This document shows, piece after piece, positions 13,239 to 29,977 of a DNA stretch of 52,310 bases. The stretch spans positions 1 through 52,310 of IMG/VR virus record IMGVR_UViG_3300013113_000097. One strand, written 5' to 3'. Positions within the stretch are counted from its first letter, which is position 1; each line of letters begins with the position of its first letter. The notes beneath the pieces were generated by a model that was given only the letters and a program-made list of their open reading frames with translations, was not told the DNA's origin and made no database searches. The translations under genes and the position numbers were made by a program. This stretch comes from a virus.

Positions 13239-16200
13239 ATGGGTTTATGTGATGTAATTGAAGATGCTATTGAAGACATTGTCGATGCAATCGTTGATGT
13301 CGTAGATACTATTGTCGATGCTGTAGTAGGTGTTATAGATGCAGTACTATCTCCTGTTGCTAATCTATTAGGATATGAAGATGGTGAAACAGATAGTGAT
13401 GATGTAGAACTATTTGAAATACATAACCAAGCTTTATTTGCAGACCCTGATAAAAAAGCTTCTGCAGAAACTGTTGTAAAAGCTATTACTCAAGGACAAG
13501 ATATAGCTGAAGCTTTAAGATTTGCTACACTATTTCAAAATGGCAAACAAAACATTAGAAAATTTATCAAGTATATTGATGATGGTGATTATTTTGAAGA
13601 CTTTCCAACTCTAAAAGGAAATGTAATGACTGTCGACTATGATGAAGTCGATTCTGTGTTAACTACTCTTAATAGCGCTCCGTGCACAATATCTAATGCT
13701 AAATTAGGTACATTGTTTGTAAACCCTTGGCAAAAATATTGGCTTCAAGAAAATAAAGCATATGTACACGAGACTAGTACATTTACACATAGTGGAACTA
13801 GTTACACTGTTAACGTTGCTAATTCTGTATATAACAGTAGTAGTAATGATTACACATTACGTACAGGAAGTCCTTTAGCAAACTTTACTGCATTTAATAT
13901 ACCTAGCAAACCTACGGGACTACATTACATAGTAAATTACTATTTAGACAGTGCTCCTAGCGTAAATAAATTATTTGTATATAAAGTCGGTGCTGGTACT
14001 TATAGTGGTTTAGATGATCCAAATACTCAAATTACTACTACTGGTACAGAAACACTCAGTGTATTACCTGCAATACCTTTACGTTTAAATAATACTAATT
14101 TTAATGCTTCAGGACAAAGTACTAGTAAACGCGATAGCATAATAGGATTAGCTGATACTGTAGGTTTAGACGCTGAAAATATTATTGACGAAGTTATGGC
14201 AGATGTTGCTGCTACTAACATTGCTAACTATCAAAATAAAGTAGACCATGTTTATTTAAATTTTGGTGTTAGAGTCTGGGATACATCACAAATAGCGATG
14301 AATTATGGCTTTAGATTTTTAAGTACGTTATTCCCTGGTCAAGGTGTAACTAAAGCTATTTATGATAGTACACCAAGCTCGGATGACAAACCTTATAATA
14401 CTATTCTTGTAACACAAGGTGATTATAAGTTAGCATTTACCTGGGCTTACATTACATATGCTAATTACACTGTAGCACAGATTAATAGTGCAGGTGCTGG
14501 TTCAGATATATATGATAAATATTATTCAGACGCAAGCAGATTTGATAGTAGCAATAATTTATTAAGTACTTATTACGTTTCATCAGGTATAAAAAGCTAT
14601 AACGTAGGTTATTTTGTTTCTAATGCTACTGAGTTAGCAGCGTTTATTGCAGGTACTCTTACTCAAGAATCTTCTTATTCTTCGGAAGCAGCCAATTGGA
14701 TGCAACCTACACAAGGAATTAGTTTTTCAGGAACAATAATAAATTCAGACAATAGTATTAGTACTTCTGGCGAAGTTAAACCATCTGAAATATATGAACG
14801 TGTACCTACTCCTACTACTCAAGTAATAACAAACAATACGACTTATTACCCAGTTGCTACTTCTGCAACGTTAAAAATCGAAATATCTGGTGGTGGAGGT
14901 GGGGGAGGTAGTGCTGAAAGAGGAGGTAGTGGTAGTAATGGACATAGTGGAGGAACAACTTACGCAAGAGTATATAATGCAGGAGGCACACTATTAAACA
15001 CTTATTCTGCTTCAGGTGGAAGCGGAGGAGGAGGAAATAGTATGGGTGAAACTTCTGTTGGAGATCCTGGAGATAATTTTGGTGGTCCTGGCAGCAATGG
15101 AGTACCTTCAGGAGCTCATTCCTCATTTTCAGGAAGTGGAGGACAAAACTATAATGATTCAGCTGGTGGTCATGCTTCAGGTTATTCAGCAGGTGGAGCA
15201 GGAGCTGGTGACGATGGTGGATGGTTCTATCAAGATGATTCTGGAGCAGGAGGCAATAGAGGCGCTTACTATACTGTAAATCACACATTAGCTAATTCTA
15301 CTGATTATGTTGTAGTTAGTATTGGGGGTGGAGGTGCAGGTGGACAAAGTGGAAATGATGGTGGAAATGGTAGTGCAGGACTTTGTGTATTAACACCATT
15401 ATCAATTACATCTGGAGTAAAAAAGATTAGTAAAGCTAACGAACCTACTACTGTAGGTACATCATTTACTTACTATCAAAATGTAGTTAACGGTATGAAC
15501 ACATACACTGTGCACTCACCTAAAAGTATGTTACGAGTAATTGATTCACAAACTAGTAAGTTTAAGATGGTTAACTTTGATTTAACTGACCCTACTGGTT
15601 TGATGATACCGTTTTCATACGAAGTTATTAAAACCTTACCTAATGACCATGTGTCTAGTTTGTTTGTAGCAAGTGCGCATATATCGTTATATGTAGCTGA
15701 TGTACAAATAATTGAACAACCTGTATGGTCAGGGTTATTAAAAATAGTACAAGTTGTATTATTCTTAATGGCAATCATATCAGGTCAGTTTGCTGCAGCT
15801 CAAGCTATTGCAGCTATGATTAAACAAATAGTAATTAATTTAGTTATAGAAAAGATCATTATTACTATTGCTAAAGAAGTAAGTCCTGAATTAGCATTTG
15901 CAGTAGCTATCTTTATTGGATATACAGTTAGTGGTGGAAAAGGAATAAACTTTAGGGCATTTGAAGATGTAGCAACTTTAATAGGTAATACAGCTGATTT
16001 AATATCAACAGTAATAGAAACTACAGTAGAAGGCTTACAAGAAGATTTAACACTTGAATGGAATGCAGAAAAAGAAAGACAAGAGAGTTTAGAAGACCAA
16101 TTAGCTGAATTAAATGAAGAATATAGTCCTAACACTATAAGACATTTAAGTAACTTAGTTAATGTAAATATGCAATCTACTATTAATCCTATGATGCCTA

Positions 16201-16307
16201 CAGAATACTTAGCTTACTATAACAATTTCCATGTTTTAGGATTTGAAGATTACAATTATGATAATACTTGGGATGTTTTATATGAAACTCAAGTAATGCA
16301 GACTTAA
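13239..16307 (+). CDS. Large virion or tail protein with glycine-rich domain and hydrophobic segment
   Basis: A 1022-residue protein. Residues 1-45 are an Asp-, Val- and Ile-rich repeat (VDAIVDVVDTIVDAVVGVID), likely amphipathic and able to contact membrane. Residues about 150-540 are beta-rich with many aromatic and Asn residues. Residues about 550-717 are glycine-rich, with runs of five or more Gly separated by Ser and Asn, as in some tail-fibre and tail-spike tips. Residues about 830-905 contain strongly hydrophobic helices (IVQVVLFLMAIISGQFAAAQ and following), and the end is helical and acidic. Terminal amphipathic and central hydrophobic parts suggest a membrane-penetrating tail component. 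It sits among internal-virion genes rather than at the main tail locus, so its site in the particle is uncertain. Confidence 0.6.
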   Translation: MGLCDVIEDAIEDIVDAIVDVVDTIVDAVVGVIDAVLSPVANLLGYEDGETDSDDVELFEIHNQALFADPDKKASAETVVKAITQGQDIAEALRFATLFQNGKQNIRKFIKYIDDGDYFEDFPTLKGNVMTVDYDEVDSVLTTLNSAPCTISNAKLGTLFVNPWQKYWLQENKAYVHETSTFTHSGTSYTVNVANSVYNSSSNDYTLRTGSPLANFTAFNIPSKPTGLHYIVNYYLDSAPSVNKLFVYKVGAGTYSGLDDPNTQITTTGTETLSVLPAIPLRLNNTNFNASGQSTSKRDSIIGLADTVGLDAENIIDEVMADVAATNIANYQNKVDHVYLNFGVRVWDTSQIAMNYGFRFLSTLFPGQGVTKAIYDSTPSSDDKPYNTILVTQGDYKLAFTWAYITYANYTVAQINSAGAGSDIYDKYYSDASRFDSSNNLLSTYYVSSGIKSYNVGYFVSNATELAAFIAGTLTQESSYSSEAANWMQPTQGISFSGTIINSDNSISTSGEVKPSEIYERVPTPTTQVITNNTTYYPVATSATLKIEISGGGGGGGSAERGGSGSNGHSGGTTYARVYNAGGTLLNTYSASGGSGGGGNSMGETSVGDPGDNFGGPGSNGVPSGAHSSFSGSGGQNYNDSAGGHASGYSAGGAGAGDDGGWFYQDDSGAGGNRGAYYTVNHTLANSTDYVVVSIGGGGAGGQSGNDGGNGSAGLCVLTPLSITSGVKKISKANEPTTVGTSFTYYQNVVNGMNTYTVHSPKSMLRVIDSQTSKFKMVNFDLTDPTGLMIPFSYEVIKTLPNDHVSSLFVASAHISLYVADVQIIEQPVWSGLLKIVQVVLFLMAIISGQFAAAQAIAAMIKQIVINLVIEKIIITIAKEVSPELAFAVAIFIGYTVSGGKGINFRAFEDVATLIGNTADLISTVIETTVEGLQEDLTLEWNAEKERQESLEDQLAELNEEYSPNTIRHLSNLVNVNMQSTINPMMPTEYLAYYNNFHVLGFEDYNYDNTWDVLYETQVMQT

Positions 16308-18016: not shown

Positions 18017-21000
18017 ATGGCAACAAATAACGCCATAGATGAAGCTTACTTACAAAGTTTAGCAAATCAACAAAGTACTGTATTAGATAAGGTACTATCA
18101 GAACAAACTGAAAGTTTAGATCAGTTAGTTAATCGTAAAAAAGAAGAGTTAGGTCTTAAATCAGAAGAAAAGACTAATGACTTTATATCTCAAAATATAA
18201 ATATTGATGATATCACAGATGCTGATACTTTACGTAATTTTGGACGTTTATACGGTGGTGGCAAAGGATTTAGTTTAGATGCATATGAAACAGCTAAATA
18301 TGATGAAAATAATGAACTAATACCTTATCTTGGAAGTATAGAACCTACTGATGGCAGTAAACGTAGTAAAAAGTGGGATCTACATCGTATATCTTATGCT
18401 AAAAGAAATGGCATAAAAGATTACACAATGGTGTCTCAGAGAATGTTAAATGAAGAGGCAGCTAAACAAACTGAAGAATTTAAACGTCTTTTACTCGAAG
18501 GACAAAATACTAGTAGTGGTCAAATAGCCGTAGACATCCGCCAGGATGGCGAAGGCTATTATGGTAGACCTTTAATTACTGTACGTAATCCTGAAACAGG
18601 CAAAATCATTAATGAAGTAATGAATACGCCTAAAACTAATGCTATGTTTTATAGTCAATATAATGTAGATTCTTATATTGATGGTGTACAAAAATTAGAA
18701 GAAGCTACAAGAAGTTTTAATGAAAAAACTTATAGTGGTGAAGGATTTTGGATAAGTGCTGGTAAAGGTTTAAGCCAAGGTATAGATGGGTTGCAAGCTA
18801 CTGGTTGGGGAATGGCAGCTTTAATTGCTGATTCAATACCAGGTAAAAGAGGTGAAGCTACTGCTACTTGGTTTATTGAACAGTATTTACGCAACTTAGA
18901 AGAAGCACAAGCAAATGGAGCACAACTTCCTAAAGTAGAGGATGTAGATTGGTCAAATCCAAATGAAGCTTTATCTAAATTTGGAGCTTTACTTGGTGAA
19001 GCTATGCCATCTATTGCATTAATGATAGGTACTGGTGGATTAGGTGGGTTAGTTGCTAAACAAGCAATTAGTGCTGGAGTAAAAGGTGCATTAAAAAATA
19101 CAACAAGCAGTAAATTTAGAAACTGGATGACTAAAACGCTTATACCTAGCGTACAAACAGGTAGAGCAGCTGGTGCTTATCTTGGTGCTACAGGTTTAGA
19201 AACAGGTAGTATATATGGAGATGTAGCTGCAGCTGGTAAAAGAGATTCAAGAGCACGATTAGGCTCATTAGCAGGTGGTACTATAGCAGGAGCTTTAGAA
19301 GCTTTTTATCCTATTAAACTAATGCGTAAATTAGGAATGGGTAAAGCTGCTAAAAGTCAAACTAATAGTTCTCTTAATAAAGTTCTTAAAAATAATTTAG
19401 GTGATAACGCTAAAGGTATAGCAGCAGGTATTCTAACTGGTGGTTCTCAAGAAGGTACAACTGAATTTTTACAGTTCATTGTAGAAGAAGTAACTCAAGA
19501 TTTAATTAAAGAAGGTCATCTACCTGACATGAATAGTGCAGAGTTTAGGTCAGGGCTATTAAATTCTTTTGTAGCAGGTTTAGTTCCTGGTTCTACGTTA
19601 AGTGGTGGAGCTAATTTAATAAATGAAGTACAAAATAGACTTGCAGGCGATCAAGGAGCTACTGCTAGAGCTTATCAAAATATCCAAAGACAAGTACAAG
19701 AAGCAACAAATCAAGAAGCTACAGGAGGCAAAGACCAAAAATCTGAAGAGATATTAGTAGATACAGTTAGTGATATAGAAAAAGTTAGTCAAGACTTAGG
19801 TGTTACTTTACCTGACGATTATGCTAAGAAAGTACCTATTGAAAAAGCTGTATTCCTTGCAGACGCTTTAAACAGGCTTGAAATTCAACAAAAAGACTCA
19901 AGTGGTGGTACAGCCGACTCAAACGTAATTAACGCTAAAAACACTATTAATGAAGCTCTAGACCAACTTAATACAGGTGAAGTACAGATTGATATTAAGC
20001 AAAGAGCAAAAAGAATTGATGATAGTGCTCAAGCAAGAATAGATAGAATAAATGCACGTACTGAGCAAAGAATAAACGAAACAACACCAAGTGGAAAACC
20101 AAAAAGTGCAAAAGCAATAAAAACTATTAAAGATAAAGCAGCTGTACAGATTGCTAATATAGAAAAAGCTAGAGATAATGCAATCAATCGATTAGGTAGT
20201 AAAAAAAGAGCAGCTAAAAAAGGAAGTGCACCAGCTCGTAGTAGTATTGTTTCAGCTGCTAAAAGAATACGAGCAATCAATAAGATTCTTAATAATAAAC
20301 AATCTAATTTATCTAAAGCTAAAAGAAAAGAATTAAATAGAGAGCGTAATCAATTAGGCGTACTCATTAATAACTTAACTAAAAAGAATGAAGTTAATTT
20401 AACTAAAGGAGTTATTAAAGCAGGACAAGATGCAATAGGAAGTTTTAAGTTTCAAAAGAAAGTAACTCAAACACAGACTAATGAAGAATTATCTGATTTA
20501 ATTGATGTAGCGCAAGCCGCTTATGACGACTACATTAATACAAAAGAAGATAATTTATCTGTTAAAGATCGCGAAGAGAAGAAATCTAATCTATTAGGTG
20601 CTTATAGTGAAATAAACAAAGCAATAAAAGAATTACAAAAAGATAAAAAAGAAACTACTGATAAAGAAGCTTTAAAAGAAATTGATGTAAAACTTTCTGG
20701 TTTTGTACAATTAAGAGAGAATATTGTAAGTGAATTAAATAAACTTAATAAAGAAGAAACTAAAAAACAAGAAACAACTACTGAACAAGATACTGATTCT
20801 TTAGATATAGATATATTAAACGAAGGAGTTGATAATGCTACATTAGGTAGCTTACAAGGAGCCCAAAAAGAACAAGCTGAAAGAAAAAATAAAGTTAGAG
20901 ATAGTTTTAGAGCAATAAAGAAAAGACTGAAAAATGCTAAAAAGACTTTATTAGATGTACATGATGAAATCACAAATGGTCGTAAAGGTAAATTTAAAGG

Positions 21001-24000
21001 TTTAGAAACTTATTTAGAAAATGCTAAAAACAATGTATTTGAAGAAACTCAATTTGATGATTTTGTATTAGGGTTAGAACTTAAATATAAAGCTTGGCAA
21101 AAAGCTAAAGCTATATTTAATAGAAAGAAAAACAAAACTGACGTATATGTAGATAAGAATACTTATAAAGTATATTCAAGCCGTAAGCAATTACCTGATT
21201 CTGATTTAAATAATTATTGGTACATCAATGATAAGAGTGATGTGTTAATTGAACTATTAGAATTAGAAATTGAATATGCAAAAAATATAAAAGCAGTTAT
21301 CGCTGATGTACTTAATAATGTAGATAGCAAGGTTAAAAATAAAGAATTAAATGATACTATCATTGCTAATCAAAAGAAGATTGATGAGATTATCGCTAAG
21401 AATCAAGAAGATACAGGAAGTCTTGATGATATAAAGAAACCTAAAGCTAAGCCTAAAAGTAAACCTAAAGCTAAACCTAAAAAAGAAGCAAAAGATTCAG
21501 ATAGCGCGACTGCTCAAGAAATTGAAGATATTATCTTAGAAGCTGAAGAAATTATAGACGAAGATGTATCTACTGATGAATTAGCAAATCCTAAAGAGCA
21601 GACTAGAGCTAATCGTAATAAACGTTTAAAAGCTTATCAAACTAGAGTTATAAATCTTATAAAAAAATTAAGTGCTGAAAGAGATACTCTTAAAGATATA
21701 TTAAAAAATAAAAAACCTTTTAACAGAGTTGAAATACAAGATAAAGTAGATGCATTAAATTACAAAATTGCTAATCATAAATTAGAGCTTAAAAATTTTA
21801 TAGCGGCAGAACTTAGGCAAAAGTCAGCAAATCATTTTTTAACTAAATTTGCTAATACTTTTGCAAAACTAAGAGATACAGTATTAAGTGTTACTGATTT
21901 GTTTAGAATTAAAGATATAGAGCGTGATTCTTTCTTCTCATTTAATCAAAACAAAAACTTAGATGAAAAATCTATTAAGCTTTTATTAGAAAAAGTCAAA
22001 GTAGACCCAGAAAGTGATTACGGAAAAGCACTAGTAAGTCAATTTATTGAGTTTAAAAAAGCATTTAACTCAATTAACTCAGGTTTAAATAAAACAGATC
22101 TTGCAAATGGTTTGTTAGCAAAACAAGCTTTTAAACTGTTTTCCGATAAAGATGGAAATTTACCAGATGAAGTAATTTTTGCAATGATGCTTAGCACTAT
22201 GCATTATGCAGCAGTAAATGTAGGACATAGTAAATTTAGGGCTATGTTTGAAATAGCTGATTTACTTTATGGAGACGCTAAACAAACAGATAGATTAGGC
22301 AAAGAAGAGATTGCTATTTGGGGTAATGCAGGTATTTTTACTAGAAATGCTAGTAAAGATATAGGTTTAGAGATGTTTGATCTATTAAATGTTAAATTTG
22401 AAAAAGACTCTGAAAAAGAGTTTTTGAAGAACATTGCTAAAATTGAAGAAGATTCATCCTTTAGAGGCGTAGTAATTAGAGATTCTAACTTTAGAAATGT
22501 AGCTAGTACATCTTTAGGATTATTAGCAATACAAACTGCCAGGAAAGTAAATTCTAACGGAAAAAAAGATAAAGGTTTATTTAGATTAAGACGTGGTAGT
22601 TACCCAATTAAACATTTTGATAATCCTAATCTTGCTTATATAAATGAATTACAAGAAGATGGTGAGCAATTTATACAGTGGAACACAATACAAATTAAGG
22701 ATTCTGATTTATTAAAGTTATTTAAAGACAATACTGATGAACTTCAAAAAATTAAAGGTGCTGATAGCAATATAAAAGATATATCTTTTAGTGTTCCTAA
22801 AAATGTACAAGAAAGAACAGATAATAGCTTTTTTAAACTTGGTAAAAAAGTAAAAAATCTTATTAAAAAGTTACAAAATGTTGAGTGGATAGGAAAAGAA
22901 TCTGAATTAGATTTATTTATCAGTTTAATGAATCTAGATAAAAATGGTAACTTAATTAAAGATGAAGAAGGTAATTTAGTAATTAATGACGCTTTAAAAG
23001 AGTTAATAGGCTACAAAGAACTTAGTGAACAGCATTCAGAAAATAGAGAAGCTGTTGACTCTGCAAATAAAGAGAAGCTAAAAGATATTGAATATATCTT
23101 TGATTACTATAACAATAGAGAAAAAGGTGGTTTAAGAGGCTTTTATTTTCGATATAAAGCTCAAAGTCAACACAGACTGCGTATAGACAGTAATACTATC
23201 AATCCACAACGTAGTAAGATAATGCGAGCTCTGTTTAATCCAGTAAATTCTGAATCTAAGATAGAAACAGATTCTGATAGAGCGATGTTTAAGTTAGGTG
23301 TTGTGCAAGCATTTGGTTACAACATTAAAACATTAGAAGAAGGTATTAATATATTTAATGCTATTAATCAGAACGAAGCTGTTAAAAATGCTATAAACGC
23401 AACCCCTGAAAACTTTTCTAATGCTTTAACTGAGTTAATGAAAGAAGATATTGTTGATGGGGCAAGTACACACTTAATTGAAGCAGTAGTTGCTTTAAAA
23501 AATTATGATGATAAAGAAGCATTTACAACTACATTAGGTGTTGAAACTGATGGTATTACAAACGGTTATGCAATTGGATTATTACAATTTTTAGATGGTA
23601 CACCTGAAGAACTAAAAGAAGCTTTAGAAAGAATTGGTGTATTTGTCGATCAAAAAGATGCTATTAATACTTACGAAAAATTCATTGCAAGTGGTAAAGA
23701 TGATGTTTATCAAGCATTTTCTAGAAAAATTGTAGAAGCTATACAAGAATTATCAGTTATTGAATCAAATGCTGTAAATGCATTACATGGTCAATTGTTA
23801 GAAAAAGATGGAAGTCTCAGTAAATTTGCAAGAGATTTAGCTAAAAATCCAGTAATGATTAGTAACTATGGTGCAGGTGTAGAAAAAGTTATTAATGCAG
23901 TAATAGGAAAAATTGTCCCTGACTTATATGATACTTTAGCTAAACACCAAACTGCGTATAACAAAGCAACTAATAAAGCAGAACGTGATGCTGTTATGGA

Positions 24001-27000
24001 TGAAATTTCAACTATTAAAGCTGCTTTACTTGCAAGTACAGGTATTGATATTAATTTTGCAGAAAAACTTGCAAACAATAAATTATATGATTTTAAATTT
24101 AGTCCAAAAAGAAAAGCTAAGATAGAAAACTATTTTAGGTCAATATATGCAAATGAAAAGACTAAATTATTTAAAAACGCTTTAGAAACTTTATTAAAAC
24201 CTATCAAAGAATCAAGAGAGATTCTTGTAAAAATAGTAGAAGCAGAATTTTTTATATTCTATTCTGAATTTCAAAAACGTACTTCTGAATTTCCAAAAGG
24301 AAGTTTAACTAATTCAGCTATAAGAATGCATATTGCTGCAGAGCTTGCAGATGACCTTATGCCAAGAATGAATAGTCCTTGGAGTGAAAATGAAGGAGAA
24401 CTATTACAGTTAATTAAACAAGTTGATACTATTGGAACACGTGTAGAAGTTCAAACTGAAGAGTTTGACAATGTTATTTGGGATAAAAGTTCTCGTGAAT
24501 TTAAATTTATTAAAAGTGAATCAGAAGCTCGTATTGGCAGCAATACTGGAACTACTGACCTTGCTGAACCTGGTGTATCCGCAGTAATAAATATGATTCA
24601 AAACATGGATTCAGTAGTATTAGGTGATTTGCTAGAACAAAAACAACAAGTATTACCTATCTATGATGCAGTCATATCTCCAATTAAAGATGCTATTAGT
24701 AATGCTCAAAAATATAATGAAAGCTTTATAAAACGTAACATTGAGCATGTAATGTTAGAAGAAACATTAGCTCAATATAAAAAAGTAGTAGCTAATGCAA
24801 GTAAATATGGAATTGATTTACAAATAATTGATAAGCAATTAAAAACAGAATCTTTTAGAGGAAAACAAATTGTTAAAGAACTTACAGAATTAAATGAAGA
24901 TATTGAAAAAATCGAAATTGATATTGATAAGTTAAAAAACAAAAAGAAACTTACACAAAAACAAGAAAATTTCTTAAGAATACAGAGATTAAGATTAGAT
25001 ACTTTATTAGAAAATAAAGTAAATTTAGAAGAAGAACAAGCTACGTTAACTATAAAAGGCTTAGAAGAAGTATTAGAAGATAAAATTTTACAAAGACAAA
25101 CTAATTTAGAAGCTTTAATAGAAAAATATGGTGATATAGATACATGGGTTATATCGCAAATGTTTTTACCTGAATCATTAGTTGATCCAAAATCTAAACC
25201 TAAACGAGAAGTAAAACCTACTAGACCACCTGTGAGAGTTGGACTTAGAGGTACTAATTTAAGTGAAGAAGTTATTGATGGTTTTAAAGGAGCAAAAGAT
25301 GCTGCTATTCAATTATCTAAATCTAAAAATCAAACAGCTTACGTAAGAAAAATAGCTAAATTGTTAATACCGCTATTATCTGATACAACTGTAGTAAGTT
25401 ATGATTTTGAAAGATATGGAAGAAGTTCTGAAGCAGTAGATGGCACAGAAAGGTCATATCATCATACAAGTGGTCAGCCTATGCGACCTAATGTAATTTT
25501 AATAGAACCTAAAGCAGGTTCAACAGTTTTATTACATGAACTTATACATGCAGCAAGCCAAAGAATTTTAAAAACAGATGCTAAAGATAGAACTTTACGC
25601 CAAAATAATGCTGTTAAAAAAATGTGGAAAGTTCGAGAAGCAATTAAAAAAGAGTATGAACGCGATATGGGTTTAGATGGTAAACCTGCCAGAGGAGATA
25701 TTACAGGAGAAGAAGAAAACAGTATTAAATATTTAATTTATGGTGGTATTGAAAATTGGGATATATCTCAAATAAATGCTCGTAAACGTATGAGTAAAGC
25801 ATTTGGAAACCCTGAAGGTTTAAGAGATAGTGAAGCATTAGCTGAATTCTTAACACAAACTTTAACTAGTGCATATGCACAACAATATTTAAAACGTAAA
25901 AAAATTACAAATAAATCAGTTTGGACAAGACTAGTAGAAACTGTACGAGATTTATTAGGAATTAAAGATGATTCATTGTTAGATGAAGCTTTAAGTATAA
26001 GCATAGAAGGCATTGAAGCACTTAAAGAAGATGACCAACGAAGCCAAGTTGATTTGTTTGATAATGAAGATAAGATTGATGAAATCAAAGTTGATGAAAT
26101 AATTGCAGATGCTAAACGAAAAGAAAAAGAAAATAAAGAAGCAGATGATACTAGTTTTATAGATGTAGATATTTTAAGCCAAATAGAAAATGATAGTAGA
26201 TACCAAGATTTAGTTGATAAAGACAAAAAATTAGTTAAAGATTTATTAGTTGTTAAAGCACAGCTAATAGATAAAATAAATGAATTGGGTGTAGATATTG
26301 TATTTGGTTTAAGTGATCCGTCTCAAGTAGAACAAGAAAGAAAGCAACTACAAAAAGAATTAAAAGAAAATACTAAAAATATTGAATCAATTCTTGATAA
26401 CAAAGAAGAAGATGATTTTTTATTTACAGAACATTTAAACTCAATAGATAATATTGTTGATAATGATTTAAAAGAAATTTATAAAACAAATTCTTTAAGA
26501 GAAAATTTACAATCAATATTTGAAACATTAGGTTTAAGTGGAAGAGATTCTTATCTTAATAAAGGCGATCAACAACGTCAAGAAGGTCATTTACAACGTG
26601 TTTTAACAGAAATTATTAGTGAAGCAGGCATAATCTTAGATGATACTACTTTAACTTTAAATGAAAGCACTATAAAAGCTCATGGAGAAGCTAACATTGG
26701 TGAATCTTCAGTAACAGTCAACTTTAATAAATTTAGACCTGAAACACACTCTGAGCAAACTGCACAAGAGGTTTACGTGCACGAGTTGCTACATATACTA
26801 ACTAGATTTGCATTAACAAAAGATTCACGAATAAAAGAAAAAGTAGAACGTATTCGTAATGAAGTTAAAGCAGAGCTAGAAAAATCTGATAAACCTTACG
26901 AATTATTTTTACGTAAAGATGCTGAAGGCAACATTATTTATTTAACTGATAAACAGTTAGAAATAGAAGCAGCCCAGGCACAATATAACTATCTATTTGG

Positions 27001-29977
27001 TGATGCTGTGCCAGCAGATGCAGTTTTAGATGAGTTTTTAGCTTATTCATTAAGTAATAAGTTTATGGTTGAAAAACTCAATACAATGGATTCTCAAGTA
27101 ATTCCATTATGGAGCAAAGATGAAAATACTACTGTAGTTGAAAAACTTGTACAATTCTTTACAGAAATTTTAGACAGGATTAGGGGTGTACTATCAGGTA
27201 AAACTAAGCCTCTTAATCTTGAAGAACAAATTTTTGAGTTAGCTAAAGATATTGTTGTAGTAAATCAATCTAAAAGAGATGAATTAGCACGAGCACTTAA
27301 GTTAAACAAAGCAGCTGGTGTAATAGATAGTGGTAATGAAGCAATTAGAAAATTTGCTAATGATGTTGCAATTGGTGCAATAAAGAAAGGAAGTGACGCT
27401 TATATTGCAGCAATAGATAAACTAACTAAAAATGGTAAAGTAAAAGGATTTTTTGCAGATGTTTTATATGATAGTAAATTAATAGCATATTTTGGATCAT
27501 CATACAAAGACTTTGTAGATAACCATCCTGCAGTACAAGAAAAACTAAATGTAATTTTCCGTAACTTCAAACCAAATACTCTAAAGAATTTAAGTTCGCT
27601 TAAATCAGATTTGTTTGGCGGAGTTAATCAAGATTTTATTAAGTTACTATATAGATCGCATAATGAAATTGATTCTAATCGTAGACAATATAAAGAATTA
27701 ACTAAAGAATCTTTGCAAAAAGTATTTAAAGATTATGATTCTTTAACAAATATAGAAAAAGAAAGTTTAACAAAGGTTTTCTTAAAAACTGATTTATCAA
27801 CATTAGTAGCAAGTGGTGAATTTACTACAGAAGAAGTAATTGAATTGATAAAAGATAATAGTGTTTTAGATGATTTAATTCTTAAATATCGTAAACAATT
27901 AAAAATTAATAAAAATAGTCATTATAGATTACAGACAAGTCAATTAGCTAAATACATGATAACGGGTAAAAATAAAAGCTATAACCAAATGTTAAATGCT
28001 GCCAATATTTACCAACATGGTTCTAAAAAGAAAAGAACGTATTCAAAAGAAGAAGCTGATAATGAAATACGCGATTTAGACATTTATATCAGTTTATTAG
28101 CTTTACGAGATCAGAATCTTCTAAATGCTAAAAATGAAGTAAATGCAGTAATTCAAAGAGAATTCGATGCAGACCCTACACATAATGGTATTCATGGATT
28201 AATTAACTTACATATATCATTTAAAGCAGAATCTTTAAAAGACGGATTTGATAATAATCCAAGTTTAATGACTAAAGGTTATATAGCAACAATAACTGAC
28301 CCAGATACACAAATAGTTATTGAACCTGATGACCCTGCAACAAATGCAGAAATGGAAAGAAGAGGTTATACATTTATATCTAAAGTTGATGGAGTAGGTG
28401 CAGAACCTTGGTCTTTATGGATAGTTAAAAATAATCCTGAATTAACAAGAACTAAAGGAATTATTTCAATGACTTCTAAACAATTTAAAGGTACGTCATT
28501 AAAAGAAATCTTTAGTAGAAACCAAACAACTAAAAGAGGCATTATGGATGCCTTGAATAAATTTAATAGGCAACAAACAAAAAGAGCAAACAAAGGAATG
28601 CTTTCACAAAAATACACAGCAATTCCTGTTGTAGATGGGTTTGGGAGAATTGTTGATTACAGAATAACAATAAATCATGCATTATCAGAAAAACATTTAC
28701 AACAAGAATTATCTTTTGATGAAGTATTGCCGACAATGTTTAGCCAACTTCAAGATAAAATTAAATCTGAACAGATAAATAAAGAAGCAATAAAGTTACT
28801 ATACACTTACGGTAAAGAGAATCGTGAAACTAACCCAAGTAAATTTATTAATATACTTGACGCAAGATATAGTGATGAATACTATCAACCTTTACCAAAA
28901 CAAGCTAAGTTTGAAATAGAAAATTTTGCAACAATAAACAAAAAAACAAGAAAACCAGAATTTTGGGTTGAAAGAGGTTATTTAGATACTGTATTTGGTT
29001 ATGTTAATCCATCAGTAGCAAATATATCGTTTTTTAATAATAAACCTAAAACACAGCGATACGTTAAAGTAACAGAAAAACTTGTTAAAGAAATGGTGTC
29101 TTTAGCAGTTGTTAACGTTGTAATTAAGATTCCTATTGTTCCTGCAGTTAACTTTGCAAGTAACTTTGTAACATCAATGTTATATGGGGTTCCACCTACT
29201 TATTTGATTAAGAAGTGGCGAGAAGGTATTCTCGAATTGAATAACTATAAACAAGACGCTAAAGAGCTCAAGTTATTAGATATTGAGATTTTGAGTAATC
29301 CTGCATTAGAAAATGATGCAAAAACTCAAAAGAAAAGAGAAATTTTAGTTAAAAAGATTAATAAAAATCCAGTATCAGGGTTTGTTGATGCTGGTTTATT
29401 TACTTCAATTACTGAAGATATTAACCAAAATGAATTTACTTATAGAAATAAATCTTTCAATAAGCTTAAAGAAAAAGGAAATAAATTAATATCAGGAAAA
29501 TTATTTGATGTAGCTAATCACGCTTATTTAGGTGAACATACTGCTATATTTAAAGCATCAATGCATTTTTTACAAATGAGTGATTTTATTGCACGATATG
29601 CTTTATATAAACATCAAGTAGAAGTAAAAGGAATAGATAAAGATAAAGCTTGGAAGACAATGGTTGAAACATTTGTAAACTACGATCAACCTTTAAATAG
29701 ATTTGTAGCTTATGGAAATGATATGGGTGCAATACTATTTGTTAAATACTGGTTACGTATTCAACGTGCAGGTATTAATTTAATAAAAGAAAAACCATTA
29801 AATGTAGGATTACTCTGGGCAAGTACTGGTTTATTAAATATGGATATAGAGACCATACTTGATTCTAGCTTGCTTACAGGTAACTTTATGCCTACATTAG
29901 GTGGTTTTGAAAAGATATTTGAAGAAGTTGTAATTCCTCCAGGACTAGAAATACTAGCTGGTGAAGGATTTAGTTAA
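18017..29977 (+). CDS. Virion-encapsidated RNA polymerase (N4 vRNAP-like) with two metallopeptidase-like modules
   Basis: A 3986-residue protein, longer than N4 vRNAP (about 3500). Single-subunit RNA polymerase motifs are visible. A T/DxxGR-like region at 1709-1738 includes R1712 and SNTINPQRSK. Motif A is DGITNGYA with D1845. A DVYQAFSRKIVEAI helix follows. Motif B is KNPVMISNY with R1939, K1943 and Y1951. Motif C is IYDAVISP with D2217. Spacing (98 from A to B, 274 from B to C) is close to N4 (111 and 281). A Lys- and Pro-rich linker lies near residue 1140, before the polymerase. Two HExxH sites follow: HELIH (2507-2511) with SEALAEFL near 2605-2612, and HELLH (2922-2926) with LDEFLAYS near 3004-3011. 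In N4 this protein is ejected with the DNA and transcribes early genes. The ribosome binding site is weak; translation may be coupled to the gene ending four bases upstream. Confidence 0.93.
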   Translation: MATNNAIDEAYLQSLANQQSTVLDKVLSEQTESLDQLVNRKKEELGLKSEEKTNDFISQNINIDDITDADTLRNFGRLYGGGKGFSLDAYETAKYDENNELIPYLGSIEPTDGSKRSKKWDLHRISYAKRNGIKDYTMVSQRMLNEEAAKQTEEFKRLLLEGQNTSSGQIAVDIRQDGEGYYGRPLITVRNPETGKIINEVMNTPKTNAMFYSQYNVDSYIDGVQKLEEATRSFNEKTYSGEGFWISAGKGLSQGIDGLQATGWGMAALIADSIPGKRGEATATWFIEQYLRNLEEAQANGAQLPKVEDVDWSNPNEALSKFGALLGEAMPSIALMIGTGGLGGLVAKQAISAGVKGALKNTTSSKFRNWMTKTLIPSVQTGRAAGAYLGATGLETGSIYGDVAAAGKRDSRARLGSLAGGTIAGALEAFYPIKLMRKLGMGKAAKSQTNSSLNKVLKNNLGDNAKGIAAGILTGGSQEGTTEFLQFIVEEVTQDLIKEGHLPDMNSAEFRSGLLNSFVAGLVPGSTLSGGANLINEVQNRLAGDQGATARAYQNIQRQVQEATNQEATGGKDQKSEEILVDTVSDIEKVSQDLGVTLPDDYAKKVPIEKAVFLADALNRLEIQQKDSSGGTADSNVINAKNTINEALDQLNTGEVQIDIKQRAKRIDDSAQARIDRINARTEQRINETTPSGKPKSAKAIKTIKDKAAVQIANIEKARDNAINRLGSKKRAAKKGSAPARSSIVSAAKRIRAINKILNNKQSNLSKAKRKELNRERNQLGVLINNLTKKNEVNLTKGVIKAGQDAIGSFKFQKKVTQTQTNEELSDLIDVAQAAYDDYINTKEDNLSVKDREEKKSNLLGAYSEINKAIKELQKDKKETTDKEALKEIDVKLSGFVQLRENIVSELNKLNKEETKKQETTTEQDTDSLDIDILNEGVDNATLGSLQGAQKEQAERKNKVRDSFRAIKKRLKNAKKTLLDVHDEITNGRKGKFKGLETYLENAKNNVFEETQFDDFVLGLELKYKAWQKAKAIFNRKKNKTDVYVDKNTYKVYSSRKQLPDSDLNNYWYINDKSDVLIELLELEIEYAKNIKAVIADVLNNVDSKVKNKELNDTIIANQKKIDEIIAKNQEDTGSLDDIKKPKAKPKSKPKAKPKKEAKDSDSATAQEIEDIILEAEEIIDEDVSTDELANPKEQTRANRNKRLKAYQTRVINLIKKLSAERDTLKDILKNKKPFNRVEIQDKVDALNYKIANHKLELKNFIAAELRQKSANHFLTKFANTFAKLRDTVLSVTDLFRIKDIERDSFFSFNQNKNLDEKSIKLLLEKVKVDPESDYGKALVSQFIEFKKAFNSINSGLNKTDLANGLLAKQAFKLFSDKDGNLPDEVIFAMMLSTMHYAAVNVGHSKFRAMFEIADLLYGDAKQTDRLGKEEIAIWGNAGIFTRNASKDIGLEMFDLLNVKFEKDSEKEFLKNIAKIEEDSSFRGVVIRDSNFRNVASTSLGLLAIQTARKVNSNGKKDKGLFRLRRGSYPIKHFDNPNLAYINELQEDGEQFIQWNTIQIKDSDLLKLFKDNTDELQKIKGADSNIKDISFSVPKNVQERTDNSFFKLGKKVKNLIKKLQNVEWIGKESELDLFISLMNLDKNGNLIKDEEGNLVINDALKELIGYKELSEQHSENREAVDSANKEKLKDIEYIFDYYNNREKGGLRGFYFRYKAQSQHRLRIDSNTINPQRSKIMRALFNPVNSESKIETDSDRAMFKLGVVQAFGYNIKTLEEGINIFNAINQNEAVKNAINATPENFSNALTELMKEDIVDGASTHLIEAVVALKNYDDKEAFTTTLGVETDGITNGYAIGLLQFLDGTPEELKEALERIGVFVDQKDAINTYEKFIASGKDDVYQAFSRKIVEAIQELSVIESNAVNALHGQLLEKDGSLSKFARDLAKNPVMISNYGAGVEKVINAVIGKIVPDLYDTLAKHQTAYNKATNKAERDAVMDEISTIKAALLASTGIDINFAEKLANNKLYDFKFSPKRKAKIENYFRSIYANEKTKLFKNALETLLKPIKESREILVKIVEAEFFIFYSEFQKRTSEFPKGSLTNSAIRMHIAAELADDLMPRMNSPWSENEGELLQLIKQVDTIGTRVEVQTEEFDNVIWDKSSREFKFIKSESEARIGSNTGTTDLAEPGVSAVINMIQNMDSVVLGDLLEQKQQVLPIYDAVISPIKDAISNAQKYNESFIKRNIEHVMLEETLAQYKKVVANASKYGIDLQIIDKQLKTESFRGKQIVKELTELNEDIEKIEIDIDKLKNKKKLTQKQENFLRIQRLRLDTLLENKVNLEEEQATLTIKGLEEVLEDKILQRQTNLEALIEKYGDIDTWVISQMFLPESLVDPKSKPKREVKPTRPPVRVGLRGTNLSEEVIDGFKGAKDAAIQLSKSKNQTAYVRKIAKLLIPLLSDTTVVSYDFERYGRSSEAVDGTERSYHHTSGQPMRPNVILIEPKAGSTVLLHELIHAASQRILKTDAKDRTLRQNNAVKKMWKVREAIKKEYERDMGLDGKPARGDITGEEENSIKYLIYGGIENWDISQINARKRMSKAFGNPEGLRDSEALAEFLTQTLTSAYAQQYLKRKKITNKSVWTRLVETVRDLLGIKDDSLLDEALSISIEGIEALKEDDQRSQVDLFDNEDKIDEIKVDEIIADAKRKEKENKEADDTSFIDVDILSQIENDSRYQDLVDKDKKLVKDLLVVKAQLIDKINELGVDIVFGLSDPSQVEQERKQLQKELKENTKNIESILDNKEEDDFLFTEHLNSIDNIVDNDLKEIYKTNSLRENLQSIFETLGLSGRDSYLNKGDQQRQEGHLQRVLTEIISEAGIILDDTTLTLNESTIKAHGEANIGESSVTVNFNKFRPETHSEQTAQEVYVHELLHILTRFALTKDSRIKEKVERIRNEVKAELEKSDKPYELFLRKDAEGNIIYLTDKQLEIEAAQAQYNYLFGDAVPADAVLDEFLAYSLSNKFMVEKLNTMDSQVIPLWSKDENTTVVEKLVQFFTEILDRIRGVLSGKTKPLNLEEQIFELAKDIVVVNQSKRDELARALKLNKAAGVIDSGNEAIRKFANDVAIGAIKKGSDAYIAAIDKLTKNGKVKGFFADVLYDSKLIAYFGSSYKDFVDNHPAVQEKLNVIFRNFKPNTLKNLSSLKSDLFGGVNQDFIKLLYRSHNEIDSNRRQYKELTKESLQKVFKDYDSLTNIEKESLTKVFLKTDLSTLVASGEFTTEEVIELIKDNSVLDDLILKYRKQLKINKNSHYRLQTSQLAKYMITGKNKSYNQMLNAANIYQHGSKKKRTYSKEEADNEIRDLDIYISLLALRDQNLLNAKNEVNAVIQREFDADPTHNGIHGLINLHISFKAESLKDGFDNNPSLMTKGYIATITDPDTQIVIEPDDPATNAEMERRGYTFISKVDGVGAEPWSLWIVKNNPELTRTKGIISMTSKQFKGTSLKEIFSRNQTTKRGIMDALNKFNRQQTKRANKGMLSQKYTAIPVVDGFGRIVDYRITINHALSEKHLQQELSFDEVLPTMFSQLQDKIKSEQINKEAIKLLYTYGKENRETNPSKFINILDARYSDEYYQPLPKQAKFEIENFATINKKTRKPEFWVERGYLDTVFGYVNPSVANISFFNNKPKTQRYVKVTEKLVKEMVSLAVVNVVIKIPIVPAVNFASNFVTSMLYGVPPTYLIKKWREGILELNNYKQDAKELKLLDIEILSNPALENDAKTQKKREILVKKINKNPVSGFVDAGLFTSITEDINQNEFTYRNKSFNKLKEKGNKLISGKLFDVANHAYLGEHTAIFKASMHFLQMSDFIARYALYKHQVEVKGIDKDKAWKTMVETFVNYDQPLNRFVAYGNDMGAILFVKYWLRIQRAGINLIKEKPLNVGLLWASTGLLNMDIETILDSSLLTGNFMPTLGGFEKIFEEVVIPPGLEILAGEGFS

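Follow-up and report, generated by a model that had tools for sequence, protein, structure and literature searches.

The virion RNA polymerase (vRNAP) of phage N4 is ejected into the cell and possesses a large, conserved C-terminal domain that lowers polymerase activity through allosteric autoinhibition and was reported to adopt a new fold (2025 cryo-EM preprint, PMC12633501). A zincin-like metallopeptidase (MPTase) domain of this vRNAP and of other polyvalent proteins was described by Iyer et al. in 2017 (PMC5512222) and shown again for N4 and Cbunavirus in a 2021 review (PMC8472413). The 2025 preprint identified the HExxH domain of N4 gp50 as subdomain C1 (residues 2124–2375) and reported that the structure of subdomain C2 (residues 2376–3500) resembles that of no known protein to a significant degree. 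Given these three publications, the preliminary description of the locus analyzed here was wrong to treat such a domain as undescribed for the N4 vRNAP.

Here, we analyze a vRNAP encoded in IMG/VR virus record IMGVR_UViG_3300013113_000097, positions 1–52,310; this whole stretch of 52,310 nucleotides is referred to as the window. It is probable that the C-terminal domain of vRNAPs starts with an ancient pair of zincin-like modules, M1 and M2, of which M2 is a pseudo-zincin in the N4-type proteins and both retain their motifs in the window. The window follows the N4 gene plan, with portal, major head protein, primase, DNA polymerase, and phage RNA polymerase genes, and its gene order is that of Schitoviridae. 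The giant open reading frame matches the PHROG vRNAP family phrog_2206 over its full length (E = 0, 1111 bits), along with a match to the Pfam N4_RNAP_helical family below the cut-off of that family (E = 4e-5). Residues D1845, R1939, K1943, Y1951, and D2217, aligned to the catalytic residues D1556, R1663, K1667, Y1675, and D1948 of N4, are all intact, bearing out the fusion of the modules to a virion RNA polymerase. The C-terminal domain matches that of the N4 vRNAP (phmmer, E = 4e-25), and residues 2807–3982 share 41.6% identity with a vRNAP from another contig (L001). The linker that separates the two modules (residues ~2660–2814) is without any family match. Elsewhere in the window, positions 13239–16307 encode a 1022-aa protein with three stretches matching PHROG family 2220 (unknown function) and a start that weakly resembles a membrane protein; judging from where it lies, it is perhaps an N4 gp53-like virion protein. 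The features of the vRNAP gene are as follows.

18017..29977, + strand: N4-type virion RNA polymerase (gp50-like), 3986 aa (phrog_2206, Schitoviridae gene order)
22619..24808, + strand: single-subunit RNA polymerase domain, residues ~1535–2264 (aligned to N4)
25292..25951, + strand: zincin-like module M1, residues 2426–2645 (N4-type M1 profile, trees)
25535..25549, + strand: HELIH of M1, residues 2507–2511
25844..25846, + strand: E2610 within SEALAEFL, putative third ligand of the M1 zinc site
25994..26458, + strand: charged linker joining the two modules, residues ~2660–2814 (acidic/lysine-rich sequence)
26468..27118, + strand: predicted zincin module M2, residues 2818–3034 (orthologous to the first part of N4 C2)
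26780..26794, + strand: HELLH of M2, residues 2922–2926
27032..27034, + strand: E3006 within LDEFLAYS, putative third ligand of the M2 zinc site
27314..29974, + strand: rest of the conserved C-terminal domain (the part of N4 C2 that follows M2)

HELIH and HELLH are the only HExxH motifs in the entire 3986-aa protein. The preliminary description had placed them at residues 2507 and 2922, about 415 residues apart, each with an acidic-Phe-Leu helix and a similar helical end behind it, and all these observations hold. A chance origin of the motifs was ruled out, with 0.03 HExxH expected from the composition and two found in only 3 of 5000 shuffled sequences. SEALAEFL begins at residue 2605 and LDEFLAYS at residue 3004, so that the candidate glutamates E2610 and E3006 lie 99 and 80 residues, respectively, behind the last histidine of the motif; both are on predicted helices in AF2 models. 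Across the 46 rows of the M1 alignment, invariance is limited to the H, E, and H of the motif and E2610; E3006 is invariant in the 12 rows with an intact M2 and is replaced by Arg in N4-type M2. Because the rows were chosen by the presence of HExxH, the third glutamate is the sole independent observation in these alignments.

The assignment of M2 to the zincins is well supported. The AF2 model of the window M2 is confident (pLDDT 91.4, pTM 0.90) and follows the published zincin plan, with N-terminal helices, three strands (model residues 64–70, 75–79, and 84–90), a helix that includes HExxH (102–121), and then the helix with E3006. A Foldseek search of the PDB placed zincins and zinc peptidases in the top ranks, albeit weakly (E ≥ 0.17), and a search of the predicted viral structures in BFVD retrieved vRNAPs, internal core proteins, and polyvalent proteins (best E = 9.6e-7, prob 1.0). 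When scored with an M2 profile from which it had been left out, the window M2 reached 237 bits, and it belongs firmly to the M2 clade.

The case for M1 as a zincin rests on profiles, with no fold match, and is less firm. The AF2 model obtained for M1 is of moderate confidence (pLDDT 79.9, pTM 0.78), with three short strands (model residues 65–67, 86–89, and 99–102) followed by a helix (108–125); the HExxH motif is on a helix, and E2610 is on helix 210–223. Foldseek searches of the PDB with the M1 model yielded no zincin, only nonspecific helical proteins, and the N4 vRNAP entries were absent from the matches of both the M1 and the M2 models. Of the two zincin domains anticipated in the preliminary description, M2 is the one whose topology was recovered with confidence. 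The expected similarity to peptidase families was found in part, as M91 was matched by M1 (E = 0.088) and SprT-like by M2 (E = 0.17), although neither window module reached the Pfam cut-off; relatives of M2 match SprT-like with E values as low as 4e-6, and weak matches to the zincin families SprT-like, M91, M76, M85, and Tox-MPTase3 recur among the relatives.

Profile comparisons indicate that the window M1 is the counterpart of the HExxH-bearing C1 domain of N4, although the window M1 is matched weakly. The M1 profile of N4-type phages scored 17.2 bits against the full window protein and 24.6 bits against the M1 segment, compared with at most 8.4 bits in 5000 shuffles, and in trees the window M1 groups with other M1 sequences. 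Among PDB chains, the M1 profile matched N4 residues 2143–2374 (C1; E = 4e-12), residues 413–558 of the internal virion protein 9sfn_G, which possess HEAVH and a downstream Glu (E = 6e-14), and two more phage proteins. A direct search of viral contigs with the window M1 sequence retrieved no relatives; the M1 of contig L017 is about 40–47% identical.

To place the modules among vRNAPs, 80 vRNAP loci were collected from viral contigs, and further loci were taken from annotated phages. The contig search employed a four-row alignment of the far C-terminus, outside the modules, as the query, so that the sampling was not steered by them. No vRNAP relatives were found in the contigs of GTDB genomes. 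The HExxH motif occurs at two positions, about 1300 residues from the C-terminus in N4 and most others, and about 1020–1100 residues from it in the window M2 and in Vibrio phages (MS02 and phi50-12, among others).

An M2-type profile that excluded the window was applied to 58 vRNAPs with the N4-type HExxH position, and its best match fell just behind this motif (about +150 to +460, E values down to 2e-26); with a profile restricted to the zincin portion of M2, the best placement was the same segment in 53 of the 58 proteins. In the N4-type segment, QEVYVHELIHAITRSGL aligns with, for example, QEAFVLEQVEATVRAAL: HExxH is mostly changed to LExxE, LDEF to L[SA]RF, and the ligand Glu to Arg, so that neither histidine nor the third-ligand Glu is present. 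The kinship of the intact and N4-type M2 was evident in profile–profile comparison (hhalign, Prob 99.0, E = 3e-18), and a search of all PDB chains with the intact-M2 profile retrieved the N4 vRNAP (11fw_A 1436–1624, corresponding to N4 2443–2631; E = 8e-7). In a shuffle control with the longer profile, N4 M2 scored 54 bits (its shuffles, at most 8.3) and others 57–61, compared with at most 8.5 bits for shuffled sequences overall. Accordingly, the N4-type vRNAPs carry two modules, namely, an intact M1 (the published C1) and an inactive M2 (the start of the published C2). In the tree, the inactive M2 rows are interspersed with the intact ones, although the deeper forks have only moderate support; this placement fits a site that was lost in N4-type phages. 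M2 is not clear in the roseophages DSS3phi2 and RPP1.

Altogether, 74 vRNAPs were scored, and one (L079), which ends inside M2, was excluded from the count. An HExxH motif in M1 or M2 was identified in 72 of the remaining 73 (56 in M1 only, 14 in M2 only, and 2 in both), a count that includes a few near-identical rows and for which most loci had been retrieved with a query that did not cover the modules; the remaining protein (L035) contains HExxH only at an unrelated place N-terminal to the polymerase. The comparison of C-termini across Schitoviridae proposed in the preliminary description thus yielded the motif in nearly all cases. The window-type and Vibrio-type vRNAPs have an intact M2 and, as a rule, no M1. 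Both motifs are kept in the window, in contig L017, and, in addition to these two, in the cultured Vibrio phage 1.245.O (HELDH at 2286 and HELSH at 2609), the M1 of which was assigned by profile score (22.7 versus 11.9 bits) and is not placed with the other M1 in one of the trees (tree 2). A single intact site, located in either M1 or M2, is thus the common state of vRNAPs, and the presence of both in one vRNAP is rare.

Several vRNAPs carry additional HExxH domains. L033 lacks M1 at its customary place and instead has an M1-like zincin (HEVVH, residue 1131) on the N-terminal side of the polymerase, as though the module had been relocated; this protein was counted under M1. An HEYAH-bearing domain occupies the place of M1 in L001 (residue 2385) and L019 (residue 2366), the nearest relatives without M1; no family was found for it, and in L001 it was rejected as an M1 counterpart because it scores nothing with the M1 and M2 profiles. 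An accessory HExxH domain with the lead-in YINFxxEHExxH (YIEFIFQHELGH in L021) appears at differing places, between the polymerase and M2 in L014 (about residue 1000) and L016 (about residue 643) and before the polymerase end in L021 (about residue 1504); it does not belong to the M1/M2 set, and neither of the two examples tested gave a Pfam peptidase match. Finally, the roseophage proteins of DSS3phi2 (L009, residue 1178) and RPP1 (L013, residue 1291) possess a different HExxH domain N-terminal to the polymerase; the two domains are alike (E = 3e-13) and fall outside the M1/M2 family.

The two modules belong to one family (hhalign of M1 against intact M2: Prob 97.1, E = 7.6e-11). Such kinship, together with the identical order of motif and Glu helix, would be expected if one module had been copied from the other within the phage lineage. 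A recent tandem duplication of this kind is, however, very improbable and was rejected on the strength of both profiles and trees. The window M1 and M2 have no BLAST match to each other (E < 0.5), which indicates that the duplication was not recent; the window M1 scores higher with the N4-type M1 profile (17.2 bits; 40.7 for L017) than with the intact M2 profile (11.2 and 8.7 bits, respectively); and the modules form separate clades in the trees (support 99/98 in one and 98/96 in another), the copies not being each other's closest relatives. The "duplicated zincin" of the preliminary description accordingly stands as deep paralogy and not as a recent copy. M1 and M2 appear to be ancient paralogous modules, with clades common across Schitoviridae, and the tandem is real. 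An unlikely alternative is that M1 was gained sideways by an M2-only lineage from another ejection protein, for example, one of crAss-like phages: the best matches of M1 among phage records are crAssphage zincin fusions (E = 1e-3), one tree joins the M1 of the window and L017 with crAss (96/88), and M1 is patchy among close relatives. The crAss row is, however, a long branch (2.43), the group still falls inside the vRNAP M1 clade, and the 43–47% identity between the M1 of the window and L017 is what a common vRNAP ancestor would give.

Under the interpretation of M1 and M2 as ancient paralogs, it is likely, if somewhat less so than the existence of the pair itself, that the Schitoviridae C-terminal domain was shaped by reciprocal decay, with the second site lost in N4-type phages, the first module lost in window-type and Vibrio-type phages, and both kept in a few, such that an entry protease is near-universal and part of N4 C2 is a dead peptidase. 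That nearly every vRNAP has kept one complete site, with the general-base Glu, points to catalysis. We consider it quite unlikely that the modules serve a structural or zinc-binding role only, given that 72 of the 73 vRNAPs keep the whole HExxH with the Glu that would be superfluous for pure metal binding. Points consistent with that view are the persistence of N4-type M2 without its site, the allosteric inhibition of the polymerase by the C-terminal domain (PMC12633501), and the lack of cleavage reports in the open-access literature. The survival of the dead M2 copies suggests that the zincin fold also has a structural job, and the M2 copy of N4-type phages probably keeps such a role in the C-terminal domain.

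As an entry protease, M1 or M2 would be carried into the cell with the ejected vRNAP, bind zinc, and cut a peptide bond, acting after ejection. The most likely target, proposed tentatively, would be the assembly that is ejected, for instance, at a flexible linker beside the autoinhibitory C-terminal domain or flanking the polymerase. Recombinant N4 vRNAP showed no degradation (PMC12633501) and the N4 protein is packaged whole and unprocessed (PMC5512222), so autocleavage was not seen under those conditions; the latter observation argues against trimming before or during packaging, one of the roles suggested in the preliminary description. In the open-access literature searched, no reports of cleavage or of a proteolysis test for the vRNAP zincin were found. 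Host proteins as targets of injected effectors, in place of a processing function, are a strong rival to the assembly and a possible if not the favored explanation: zincins act as effectors in many conflict systems, as proposed in PMC5512222, the weak Pfam matches include the effector families M91, M85, and Tox-MPTase3, and accessory unrelated HExxH domains come and go among related vRNAPs. The retention of a site in nearly all vRNAPs, across many hosts, better fits a core entry step than a target specific to one host.

The retention of one intact site in either module suggests a catalytic step in phage entry, and the presence of the same module in crAss-like and other ejection proteins suggests that this step may be shared. 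If the proposed architecture is correct, the first ~500 residues of the C-terminal domain are a zincin pair, one member of which is usually inactive, and part of the "new fold" of N4 C2 is a dead peptidase.

Comparison with the known systems brings out both the common and the distinct features of the window vRNAP. The N4 MPTase of PMC5512222 is in the same protein, in the same post-polymerase position, and with the same HExxH and downstream Glu; the M1–M2 pair, the inactive N4 M2, and the reciprocal loss are not described in the part of that article available. The C1 subdomain of N4 gp50 (PMC12633501; PDB 9pnr and 11gp) is the counterpart of the window M1; in contrast to the window, only a single site is intact in N4, where the M2 counterpart (2443–2631) is inactive and was assigned to C2, for which structural homology was reported to be lacking. 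The vRNAP of the Pectobacterium Cbunavirus (PMC8472413) resembles that of the window in the location of the zincin between the polymerase and the C-terminal domain, but a single zincin was reported. The crAssphage "RNAP associated protein/zincin protease fusion" (L010, MT006214, 3706–9579) contains a zincin similar to the window M1 (37.6% identity over 93 aa around the third-ligand helix), a link between proteins of crAss-like and N4-like phages, although it comes from another phage order with another type of polymerase, and the zincin is in a separate protein beside the polymerase subunit. Among the internal core and ejection proteins of other phages (PDB 9sfn_G, 8vb2, and 23sg), 9sfn_G shares with the window M1 the match to the M1 profile, HExxH, and a downstream Glu, and differs in that its entry names no RNA polymerase and one stretch only is matched. 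Against this background of open-access literature, the paired, reciprocally decayed architecture and the inactive second module of N4 appear to be new.
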